Shown in pieces: positions 49,798 to 54,364 of a stretch of 64,000 bases of DNA (its first letter is position 1; every line of letters starts with the position of its first letter). Both the position numbers and the translations under genes were made by a program. This DNA comes from Actinomycetota bacterium (GTDB taxonomy: Bacteria; Actinomycetota; Thermoleophilia; Solirubrobacterales; 70-9), in assembly GCA_018268415.1 (NCBI GenBank), contig JAFDWO010000016.1:1-64000 (forward strand). Direction: 5' to 3'. Below the pieces are notes generated by a model that had not been told where the DNA came from, made no database searches, and saw only the letters and a list, made by a program, of their open reading frames with translations.

Positions 49798-50103
49798 ATG
49801 GCCGACGACGGCATCTACGAGATCGCGCAGTTGCACATCACCCCCGGGCAGAAGGAGGCCTTCCTCGCCGCCGCGGAGAAGGCGCTCGCAGTGATCGGCG
49901 CCGCTCCTGGCTGCCGCGGCGCGAAGTTCTTCGACTGCGTCGAGGAGGAGACCGAACCGGTCTTCTTCGTCAACTGGGACCGGGTCGAGGACCACTCCGC
50001 CTTCCGCGAGAGCGAGGCGTTCGCCGAGTACCGCTCGCACATCTCGCCTTACTTCGCCGAGCTGCCGACGGCGCGGCACTACGAGCTCGGGGTCGACGCC
50101 TAG
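49798..50103 (+). CDS. ABM-domain (antibiotic biosynthesis/quinol monooxygenase-like) protein
   Basis: 101 residues, the size of a single dimeric alpha/beta ABM domain (IAQLHITPGQKEAFLAAAEKAL, VFFVNWDRVEDHSAFRESEAF). Relatives include cofactor-free quinol monooxygenases (YgiN) and polyketide tailoring oxygenases. AAGGAGAG precedes ATG 49798. It is last in the P450 operon and could oxidise a hydroquinone intermediate. Its stop shares CTAG with the convergent hydroxylase gene. Confidence 0.8.
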   Translation: MADDGIYEIAQLHITPGQKEAFLAAAEKALAVIGAAPGCRGAKFFDCVEEETEPVFFVNWDRVEDHSAFRESEAFAEYRSHISPYFAELPTARHYELGVDA

Positions 50104-51689
50104 ACCCGGCGCACCGGACGACCGAGGTGGAGCGAGCGCGCCAGCTCGCCCACCAACCGGTCGGCCTCGCCGACATCCGCGGCGGTCCCGTAGACGTGGA
50201 AGTCGGGACGTACCAGGGCCAGCTCGATCCCTAGTCGGGAGAACCACCCGGCGTAGGTTCCGTCGACGTCGTCGTACGGTGCGCCGGGCGCGATCCGGGC
50301 GCTGGCACCGCCGAGGCACCGCCAGATCGCGGCGGCTTCCTCGCCGAGGTGGAGGGCAGGATCGCCGCTCGGGCTGAGCAGGACGAATCCCGGGCCGATC
50401 AGGTCGTCGAGGAGCGCGGTCCGGCCCCCGTGCCCGACCCGCCCCTGTACCCCGAGCAGGCCCGCGTACGGGTCTCCGTCCAGGGTCGCTCCGGGGCCGA
50501 GGCGCCAGGGCGGAGGAGGGGGCGGTGCCGACGACGGGTCGGTGCGGGCGGCGATCATCGCCCGGTCGCGCGCCGCCGCCGCGGCGGGATCGAGGACGCA
50601 GATCACCTCGCCCAGGGCGACCGCCTCTTCGATGATCCCGCGCACGTGGCCGAGGCGCTCGGGGCCGTAGGAGTCGAGCAGCTCCTCGCCCGCGATCCCG
50701 GCCTGGATCAGCCCGAGCCGCCAGGCGAGGGCGCGGCTGTCTCGCATCCCGGAACCGAGGCCCTGGCCGAGGAAGGGCGGCATCAGATGGGCGGCGTCGC
50801 CGGCCAGGATCAGTCGGCCCTGGCGCCAGCGGTCGCACCAGCCGGCGTTGAAGGTGTAGACCGCGTGGCGGACCAGGTCGGCGTTCTCGGGGGTGATGCC
50901 CCAGCCGCCCAGCAGTCGCCAGGCGGCCTCCGGCGTGCCCAGCTCCTCCTTCGTCTCATCGGGCAGCAGCATGAACTCCCAGCGCCGCCGCCCGCCCGGG
51001 CCCGAAGGGACGCAGGTGGTCGGCCGGGTCGGGTCGCAGCGCTGCTCGAGGTAGGGCCACCAGTCCCCTTCCCGGTGCGGGATGGTGTCGACCACGAGCC
51101 AGTCGTGGGCGAACTCGAGGTCGGTGCGGGTGGGGCCCATGGTGCGGCGGACGAGGCTGTTGGCGCCGTCGGCACCGACCACCCAGTCGGCGACCGCCGT
51201 CCACCGCTCTTCGCCCGACCCGTCGCCGGCCGTCGCCCGCAGCTCCACCGTGGCGGAGTCCTCGTCCTGGCTCACCGCGTCGGCTTCCCAGCCGCGATGG
51301 AAGGCGACGTTCGGGAGCGTCGCGAGCTTCGACTCGAAGAGGTCCTCGAGGTCGGGCTGGAAGTAGGTGGACATCTCCGGCCAGCCGCTGTCGCCGGGCA
51401 GGTTCCAGGCGATCTCGAGCAGGATCTCCTCCGCGGCGTTGCGGAAGATGTAGGCGCGGTCCTCGCCGATCACCGGCTCCAGCACCGGCCTCACCGCCTC
51501 GCCGAGGCCGGCCGACTGGATCACCCGCACGGCGTCGTGGTGGATCCCGCAGGCCCGCGGGTCCGGATAACGGCTCGGCCAGCGCTCGAAGATCGCGACG
51601 TCGATGCCCAGCATGCCGAGCTGGATCCCGGCCATCATCCCGACCGGGCCGCCGCCGATCACCACGCCCTCGTGATGCGTCTCCCGCAT
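50100..51689 (-). CDS. FAD-dependent aromatic hydroxylase (PheA/TfdB/MhpA family)
   Basis: 529 residues from ATG 51689. FAD motif VVIGGGPVGMMAGIQLGMLG (9-28), the DG motif DWVVGADGANSLVR and the GD motif LILAGDAAHLMPPFLGQGLGSGMRDS. A C-terminal thioredoxin-like domain ends with LALVRPDFHVYGTA. It would hydroxylate a phenolic ring with NAD(P)H and O2. A second enzyme of the family is at 57820. Third gene of the SDR-amidohydrolase-hydroxylase operon on the minus strand. Confidence 0.9.
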   Translation of the reverse strand: MRETHHEGVVIGGGPVGMMAGIQLGMLGIDVAIFERWPSRYPDPRACGIHHDAVRVIQSAGLGEAVRPVLEPVIGEDRAYIFRNAAEEILLEIAWNLPGDSGWPEMSTYFQPDLEDLFESKLATLPNVAFHRGWEADAVSQDEDSATVELRATAGDGSGEERWTAVADWVVGADGANSLVRRTMGPTRTDLEFAHDWLVVDTIPHREGDWWPYLEQRCDPTRPTTCVPSGPGGRRRWEFMLLPDETKEELGTPEAAWRLLGGWGITPENADLVRHAVYTFNAGWCDRWRQGRLILAGDAAHLMPPFLGQGLGSGMRDSRALAWRLGLIQAGIAGEELLDSYGPERLGHVRGIIEEAVALGEVICVLDPAAAAARDRAMIAARTDPSSAPPPPPPWRLGPGATLDGDPYAGLLGVQGRVGHGGRTALLDDLIGPGFVLLSPSGDPALHLGEEAAAIWRCLGGASARIAPGAPYDDVDGTYAGWFSRLGIELALVRPDFHVYGTAADVGEADRLVGELARSLHLGRPVRRV

Positions 51690-51705
51690 CTCGCCGCAGC
51701 CGGGC

Positions 51706-52701
51706 TCAGGCGCCCATCCGGGCGGCGACGCCGGGGAGGAGGCGCAGCGCGTTGCCGCGGTAGACGGCTTCGCGCTCGCCCTCGTCGAGGAGCGGCGTCG
51801 CGTCGAGATTGCTGGCCAGCTCGGCCGCCTTCCAGTCCGGGGTGAACGGCTGATCGCTGCCGGCCAGGAGGCGGTCGACCCCGACCAAGGTCTGGATCGC
51901 GGCAAGCTGCCGCGGGGTCGAGAAGCCCGCGACGTCGTACCAGAAGGTCCCCAGGGTCTCGATCGCCTCGGCCGCCGAGAGCTCGCTCATCTGCGGCACC
52001 ATGTCGAGCAGGCCGCCGATCCGATCGGCGACCACCGGCAGGGCGGCGCCCGCGTGGGGCGCAATCAGCTCCACGTTCGGGAACCGGTGCCTGGTCCCGG
52101 TCAGCACCAGGTTGGCGACCGCGCGGGTGCTCTCGAAGATGAACTCCAGCAGAGGCCGCGGGTAGGCGAGCTCGATGTTCTCCCAGCCAGGGGGCGAGGC
52201 GGGGTGGATCAGCGCCACCGACCCGCGCCGGTCGAGCTCCTCGAACAGCGGGTCGAGGCGGTGGTCGCCGAGGTAGAGGCCGTTGCTGTTGCTCTGCAGG
52301 ATCAGGCCGTCGGCACCGAGCTCGTCGAGGGCGTATCCGAGCTCGACCAGGCTGCCCTCGACGTCGGGCAGCGGCAACGAGGCGAAGAGGCCCAGGCGGT
52401 CGGGATGGGCGCGCACGTGAGCAGCGCCTTCCTCGTTGACCCGGCGGGCCAGCTCGCGAGCCGCGGCGTCGTCGCCGAAGTGGACGCCGGGGGAGGAGAC
52501 GGAGAGCACGGCGAAATCGGCACCGACCCGCTCCATCCCCTGCAGCGCTTCCTCGACGCTCCAGTCGGGGAGGGTCGGGAAGCCGTCCGGCTCGGCGTGG
52601 CCGCCGGCCCGCATCGCCTCCCGGTAGCCCTCGGTCAGGTAGTGGACGTGGACGTTGATCCGCCCTCCGAGCGGGACGGGGGAGGCGTCTCGAAGACCCA
52701 T
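51706..52701 (-). CDS. Amidohydrolase_2-family decarboxylase-like protein
   Basis: 331 residues. N-terminal metal motif NVHVH (His 18, His 20), then LIHPASPPGW, IAPHAGAALP and GSDQPF, the metal/catalytic positions of the ACMSD-type amidohydrolase family. Members such as 6-methylsalicylate and gamma-resorcylate decarboxylases remove CO2 from aromatic acids; true hydrolases also occur. The start codon immediately follows the SDR stop (TAGATG). With the hydroxylase downstream, a decarboxylation-hydroxylation sequence on an aromatic acid is plausible. Confidence 0.85.
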   Translation of the reverse strand: MGLRDASPVPLGGRINVHVHYLTEGYREAMRAGGHAEPDGFPTLPDWSVEEALQGMERVGADFAVLSVSSPGVHFGDDAAARELARRVNEEGAAHVRAHPDRLGLFASLPLPDVEGSLVELGYALDELGADGLILQSNSNGLYLGDHRLDPLFEELDRRGSVALIHPASPPGWENIELAYPRPLLEFIFESTRAVANLVLTGTRHRFPNVELIAPHAGAALPVVADRIGGLLDMVPQMSELSAAEAIETLGTFWYDVAGFSTPRQLAAIQTLVGVDRLLAGSDQPFTPDWKAAELASNLDATPLLDEGEREAVYRGNALRLLPGVAARMGA

Positions 52702-53433
52702 CTAGGACTGCTCGACCGGCACCGCGCCGACGGCGATCGCTGCGCCCGGCTCGGTGTCGGCCGAGTCGACCAGGGCCCAGATTTCGCGGGCGGCTTCGAG
52801 CGGGGAGGCGAGCTCCTCCGCGGCCGCCGCGGCGCGGAAATGGTCGCCCAGCGGGAGCACGTCGGCGGGGCTATCCATCGCCTCGCGGACCATCGCCGTG
52901 TCGACGCCGTAGGGGATGACCGAGAAGATGTTGCCCCGCGCGTTGCCCGCCGCCAGGTCGAGGGCCGCGGCCCGTGCCCAGTGCTCCTGGGCCACCTTGC
53001 CGGCGCCATACTGGGCGATGCCCTCGAGCGCTTTGTGGCCCCCTGGGCTCGAGCAGAGGACGAGCGTGCCGGGGATGTCCCGCTGCGCGGCGGCGGCGAC
53101 GAAGGCGGCGCCGAGGACCTGGCCGGAGGCCGAGTTGAGCAGGACCGAGGAGCGGTGCTCGTCGAGGTCGATCGAACGCAGCGGCCCGATCGGTCCGATC
53201 ACCCCGGAGAAGTGCAGGAAGACCGCCTTGCGCGGGCGCTCGGTGTCGAGCGTCGCCTCGATCGCGTCCTTGACAAGGTCCCAGCTCGCCGGGTCGCCGA
53301 GGTCGGCGGCGAGGTGCTCACCGCGCACGGGCGGCCGTCGCGAGATGCCGATCAGGCGCGCGTCCTGCGGTGCCAGGTCCGCCACGGCTGCGCCGATTCC
53401 TGACGAAGCTCCGGTGATCCAGATCGGGTCGAT
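52702..53433 (-). CDS. Short-chain dehydrogenase with apparent AUC start
   Basis: 243 residues if started at ATC 53433-53431. The NAD motif TGASSGIG (residues 7-14) lies upstream of the first usual start codon (GTG 53385). Between the in-frame stop at 53446-53448 and the motif there is no ATG, GTG, TTG or CTG. GAGAGGAG ends 6 bases before the second of two ATC codons, so initiation at AUC fits well. The catalytic Tyr 142 and Lys 146 (QYGAGK) and Ser 128/129 are present. A sequencing error or frameshift is the alternative. First gene of the minus-strand operon. Confidence 0.75.
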   Translation of the reverse strand: MDPIWITGASSGIGAAVADLAPQDARLIGISRRPPVRGEHLAADLGDPASWDLVKDAIEATLDTERPRKAVFLHFSGVIGPIGPLRSIDLDEHRSSVLLNSASGQVLGAAFVAAAAQRDIPGTLVLCSSPGGHKALEGIAQYGAGKVAQEHWARAAALDLAAGNARGNIFSVIPYGVDTAMVREAMDSPADVLPLGDHFRAAAAAEELASPLEAAREIWALVDSADTEPGAAIAVGAVPVEQS

Positions 53434-53496
53434 GATTCGCTCCTCTCACGCGGGGCCGTCCCATGGCCCGCTCCCTTCACCCGCACGATCCACTAT

Positions 53497-53505
53497 ATAT
53501 CATAT
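53497..53505 (-). promoter_or_regulatory. AT-rich promoter/operator motif upstream of the SDR operon
   Basis: ATATGATAT on the minus strand, within GAGAATATGATATATAG, about 65-75 bp upstream of the SDR start. TATGAT or TATATA here could be a -10 box. It shares its 9-mer with the P450-1 promoter region at 45883. Confidence 0.5.
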
Positions 53506-53594
53506 TCTCCGGTATGTCGGATCGCGAAGCTGCCGGGATGGTCGCCACGAAGCGGAGCTTGGTCGCCGGCCGACGCGGCCCCCGTGGAGACGGG

Positions 53595-54227
53595 TCAGCC
53601 GACGCGGTCTTCGATCGTCGAGAACCAGATCGCCAGCACCGTCTCGGCGACCCGTCGCACCTCGGCTTTGCTGATTGCCGAGGCGATGTAGAAATTCCGC
53701 TCGCCCATCCAGGCGAGGCCTTTGGCCAGCGCCCGGGCCCCGGTCGGACCCCCGTCGTCGGGCACCCCGGCCCGCACCAGGACGTCGCCCAGCAGGTCGA
53801 CGTAGAGGTCGACGGTGCCCCGCCAGATCTCTCGGACCTCGGGGTTCGAGGGGGCATTGTCGACCGCCGCCCGCATCACCACGCCGTGGTCGAGCCACTG
53901 CTTCTCGATCCGCCGGATCGAGCGTTCGATCGTTGTCTGCGGGGGCACGTCGACTTCGGCGGCGAGCGTGTCCGCGTCGTCGCGGGTGACGCCCATCGTC
54001 CGCGCCACCAGCGCCGTGACGACCTCCTGCTTGGAGCCGAAGTAGAAGTACAGCGAGGCGCGGGAGATGCCCGCGCCGGCGGCGATCTGCTCGACCGTCA
54101 CCGGGTCGAGGCCGCGCTCCTCGAGCAGCGCCTCGGCGGCGTCGAGGATCGCCTGCTCGCGCCGGTCGCCCTTGGTCGGGTTGTCGGGTCGACGCGGTCG
54201 CTCGGCGACGGGTTCAGATGCGCTCAC
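53595..54227 (-). CDS. TetR-family regulator
   Basis: 210 residues from GTG 54227; longer in-frame versions add a Pro/Arg-rich tail. HTH: REQAILDAAEALLEERGLDP, VEQIAAGAGISRASLYFYFGSKQEVV. The C-terminal domain (ERSIRRIEKQWLDHGVVMRAAVDNAP, LAWMGERNFYI) matches the TetR group near lipid/sterol catabolic genes. It lies between the SDR operon and the divergent P450-2 operon and probably governs both. There is no clear ribosome binding site at the chosen start. Confidence 0.87.
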   Translation of the reverse strand: MSASEPVAERPRRPDNPTKGDRREQAILDAAEALLEERGLDPVTVEQIAAGAGISRASLYFYFGSKQEVVTALVARTMGVTRDDADTLAAEVDVPPQTTIERSIRRIEKQWLDHGVVMRAAVDNAPSNPEVREIWRGTVDLYVDLLGDVLVRAGVPDDGGPTGARALAKGLAWMGERNFYIASAISKAEVRRVAETVLAIWFSTIEDRVG

Positions 54228-54299
54228 GGGGGAGAGGCTAACTCTCTTCGCCGGCCCGGTACGGCACCGGCGGCGAGTCGGTGCAAAATCGACGTCGTG

Positions 54300-54328
54300 T
54301 TGACAATGGATAGTACCTGAGATATTTT
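54300..54328 (+). promoter_or_regulatory. Sigma70-type promoter of the P450-2 operon
   Basis: A consensus -35 TTGACA (54300-54305) and TATTTT (54323-54328) are separated by 17 bp, about 40 bp upstream of the ribosome binding site GGAGGT at 54355. ATATTTTCCGG here resembles ATATTCTCCGG at 53503, so a shared regulator site may overlap. Confidence 0.65.
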
Positions 54329-54364
54329 CCGGCGCGGGAATTGCCAACGGGAACGGAGGTTGTG

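Follow-up and report, generated by a model that had tools for sequence, protein, structure and literature searches.

A tandem ATC at the start of an SDR oxidoreductase gene: a miscalled or recently mutated canonical codon slightly favoured over AUC initiation

In the 64,000-nucleotide stretch of an Actinomycetota bacterium assembly analysed here (the window), an SDR oxidoreductase gene reads ATC ATC at the place where its translation appears to begin. The start site of the gene can be assigned to this tandem (53436/53433) with good confidence, and the explanation slightly favoured over genuine AUC initiation, at a probability of roughly 0.5, is that the gene is intact and that the start codon at the ATC site was miscalled or has freshly mutated from a canonical one; all weights placed on the SDR start are judgements, not computations. 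An earlier note on this DNA had proposed that the gene starts at AUC, a claim well supported for the place of initiation, on the grounds of homology, the Shine–Dalgarno (SD) sequence and the onset of coding signal, while genuine use of AUC is given less weight. The features concerned are as follows:

52702 to 53436, minus strand: SDR oxidoreductase coding region, first ATC to stop TAG, frame open; start at 53436 or 53433
53446 to 53448, minus strand: in-frame TGA closing the SDR frame upstream, from reading of the sequence
53431 to 53436, minus strand: tandem ATC ATC, where translation presumably starts; SD spacing is better for 53433, and 53436 falls in the paralog ATG column
53440 to 53447, minus strand: GAGAGGAG, SD-like, predicted anti-SD duplex -8.3 kcal/mol
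53383 to 53385, minus strand: GTG, first canonical codon, downstream of TGASSGIG; poor SD, -4.0 kcal/mol
51706 to 52701, minus strand: amidohydrolase-2 gene (PF04909, 3.8e-26), its ATG immediately after the SDR stop
50100 to 51689, minus strand: MhpA-like FAD monooxygenase, third in the presumed operon (NF004829, 519.5 bits, cut-off 390)

The SDR frame runs uninterrupted on the minus strand from after the TGA at 53448-53446 down to the TAG at 52704-52702, its 5' end reading TGA GAG GAG CGA ATC (53436) ATC (53433) GAC CCG ATC TGG ATC ACC GGA GCT TCG TCA GGA ATC GGC. Minus-strand reading bears out the earlier observation that no ATG, GTG, TTG or CTG occurs between the upstream stop and the TGASSGIG motif; the earliest canonical codon in frame is the GTG at 53385, already within the Rossmann fold, and, as in near-cognate-start genes of the infC, sigR and pcnB type, no canonical in-frame start fits the conserved protein. 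The SDR protein matches Pfam adh_short (PF00106) over most of its length (3.4e-12, 46.7 bits, cut-off 26.6) and the PDB SDR chain 5if3 (3.4e-15), and the cofactor motif TGASSGIG (TGxxxGIG type), SS and YGAGK (YxxxK) are kept in both its translation and alignment A1; profile match, glycine-rich motif and catalytic S/YxxxK together characterise a classical SDR oxidoreductase. The Rossmann TGASSGIG and YxxxK are held in common with the classical SDRs PRK07023 and benzil reductase PRK06924, although the protein lies well under both curated cut-offs: the best curated equivalog match, PRK07023, reaches 93.9 bits, far under 292, and identification as benzil reductase fails by score (57.3 bits against 258). 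A paralog with 56% identity is encoded in the same genome. The SDR presumably leads an operon with the amidohydrolase and the FAD monooxygenase; since the amidohydrolase ATG follows the SDR stop without a gap and lacks an SD (upstream duplex -2.7 kcal/mol), its translation is probably coupled to that of the SDR.

Three lines of evidence bear on where translation begins. The SD-like sequence that had been placed 6 nt before ATC 53433 was recovered there (GAGAGGAG, 53447-53440), the 3' end of its AGGAG lying 3 nt from ATC 53436 and 6 nt from ATC 53433. A predicted anti-SD duplex at least this strong precedes 4.1% of the ATC triplets in the window (n=1963), compared with ~27% of the gene starts in a 411-kb sample of the genome (n=314, crude calls); the SD is moderate and by itself only moderately above chance, and the enrichment supports initiation at the ATC site about sixfold but does not tell a genuine ATC apart from an ATG that was miscalled. 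The coding signal sets in at the ATCs, with codon log-odds of +3.6 from ATC 53436 to GTG 53385, a rough score over a short stretch. Among readable relatives from the order and phylum, 30/30 have a canonical start (ATG, GTG or TTG) 5-7 codons ahead of a conserved W/I, and none shares the lack of one, which places the SDR outside the family norm; ATC 53436 lies 5 codons, and ATC 53433 4 codons, from the conserved W. The paralog start, MTAVVWITGASSGIG, aligns its ATG with the column of ATC 53436, the first triplet of the tandem, which the earlier note did not mention; homology favours 53436, SD spacing 53433. Comparison of the orthologues' codon at this site, proposed in the earlier note as a check, returned canonical starts only and AUC in none, from relatives too distant to share the same start-codon history, no close orthologue with the same leader being among them. 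A DNA search of 12 genus genomes found neither a second copy of the locus nor a close strain; a protein-query scan of genome contigs returned no SDR relative, an alignment-based scan returned named relatives, all distant, and a plasmid collection gave no match to the SDR.

On the favoured explanation, the SDR, as first gene of the presumed operon, would be initiated at the tandem ATC site, its ancestral start codon would have been a canonical one, most probably ATG, and the C now read there would have come from a miscall in the draft assembly or from a point mutation of recent date; it would not mark a start that evolved for regulation. This is suggested by the canonical starts of all 30 relatives and the paralog ATG column, together with the finding that a single change, C to G at 53431 or 53434, restores an ATG behind the existing SD. 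It is suggested also by what is known of near-cognate starts: among 61,358 reconstructed ancestral AUG starts, two changed to CUG and one to AUU, with no switch to AUC listed (PMC5622118), counts probably lowered by annotation bias, and the AUU and AUA starts of S. aureus, with ~10% of AUG activity, have extended conserved SDs (PMC13009471), whereas that of the SDR is moderate; for ccpN of S. aureus, near-cognate start activity of up to 30% is reported in rich medium (PMC13009471).

The quality of the assembly enters on both sides. The window belongs to contig 68 of a draft in 160 contigs with 94.4% completeness, and in a sample of the other contigs the main ftsZ (L202:7787-8747, G000:C43) proved to be frameshifted, HMM positions 7-163 and 162-328 falling in separate frames. 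ftsZ is present in 12/12 genus genomes, mostly as two paralogs (L207, L210-L222), and the one broken in the source genome is intact in six of the twelve; the split is a probable assembly error, from which it follows that consensus errors, at least one, occur in this assembly, in favour of a miscalled start. Against it count the codon-usage scans of the window's own genes, in which no frame break is evident, so that this contig may be clean, and the nature of the ftsZ defect, an indel where sister assemblies break too, not a random substitution. The frameshift scan was dominated by antisense shadows, and ftsZ was the sole case accepted, on the strength of its divided HMM match; start-loss flags from codon usage, noisy by themselves, mark 83/314 genes, mostly with small excess. 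If the ATC is an error, a single base of a draft genome can mimic a convincing yet false rare start codon. G002 likewise carries a split copy, other genus assemblies break at contig ends, and several interrupt the main ftsZ at or around model positions 158-163.

Genuine AUC initiation, in which the SD would place initiator tRNA on AUC 53433 (or 53436) at low efficiency, subject to IF3 discrimination, and so throttle the SDR and the coupled amidohydrolase, is a tentative alternative to which less weight is given. It accords with the 6-nt spacing to ATC 53433, the coding signal from the ATCs onward, the intact SDR protein and the adjoining amidohydrolase without an SD, and it has precedents in Streptomyces, where infC starts at ATC and sigR at GTC (PMC5472188). 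As in infC (ATT in E. coli, ATC in Streptomyces, AUA in S. aureus), a near-cognate ATN stands behind an SD (PMC5472188, PMC13009471), in Streptomyces the same triplet as in the SDR; infC, however, is autoregulated through IF3, which it encodes, whereas the SDR is an enzyme whose AUC was read in no relative. As with Streptomyces sigR, the non-canonical start would sit on the leading gene of a coupled pair (PMC5472188), but the sigR SD, AGGAGGTG, is longer and conserved across Streptomyces and its start is experimentally proven, while the SDR has a shorter SD and a putative start. Against genuine initiation stand also the moderate SD, the catabolic and not regulatory nature of the SDR, the errors present in the draft assembly, and infC itself, for which a near-cognate start was sought in 29 loci of the source's order and none found (GTG, once TTG). 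Were the AUC start genuine, it would lie outside infC, on a catabolic SDR at the head of an operon, and would throttle the SDR–amidohydrolase pair in a lineage whose infC uses no near-cognate start, a further case of the kind known from infC and sigR; this reading is the less likely one.

Two other explanations, both improbable, would remove initiation from the ATCs. The true start could lie upstream, at ATG 53464, GTG 53449 or GTG 53493, and have been cut off from the frame through an indel in the assembly, an altered stop codon or programmed frameshifting:

53462 to 53464, minus strand: upstream ATG in another frame, preceded by an SD of its own, GAAGGGAG (-8.3 kcal/mol); leader codon score -8.0

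Here the SD equals that of the ATC, the short frame from GTG 53493 runs to TGA 53446, a stop that lies in the SDR frame, ftsZ offers a precedent for an indel, and the same-genus orthologue from a sister species (G004) has a longer N-terminus, with a GTG 11 codons before the W. The remaining readable relatives, by contrast, all begin 5-7 codons before the W/I, and the leader codon scores, rough as the stretches are short, are -8.0 from ATG 53464 and -3.4 from GTG 53493, so that an upstream start masked by an indel or by alteration of the stop is unlikely; both leaders score as non-coding, and ATG 53464 was rejected as the SDR start. Slightly less probable still is a start-loss pseudogene, or a gene from which nothing but a shortened protein, begun at GTG 53385, is made. 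The 56% identical paralog could make the SDR redundant, but the full-length open frame, normal codon usage and intact motifs argue against decay, the GTG 53385 form would lack TGASSGIG and has a poor SD, and if the SDR were no longer translated, the adjoining amidohydrolase, lacking an SD of its own, would be affected as well.

Upstream of the SDR, the following were located:

53492 to 53520, minus strand: promoter-like site, CCGACA-17 nt-TATAGT, 9/12 consensus matches
53595 to 54347, minus strand, as the SDR: TetR-family regulator (PF00440, 3.6e-17; EthR_C, 4.6e-10)

Promoter-like sites number two on both strands combined in the 321-nt region, against a mean of 0.1 in shuffles, and transcription from the site at 53520-53492 would probably begin downstream of GTG 53493. 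That GTG opens a 15-codon minus-strand frame (53446-53493), in register with the SDR, which closes at TGA 53446 immediately before the SD. The leader RNA folds no better than its own shuffles (z 1.08), and no riboregulator is therefore proposed. The infC genes of the order (L066-L095) have a conserved GTG start (CTAGTGCCGGTCCCG, TTG in one case) with little in the way of an obvious SD before it and are possibly leaderless. The FAD monooxygenase frame (50100-51905, minus strand) opens at TTG 51905; its family match and coding signal start near ATG 51689, so that the longer start is probably wrong.
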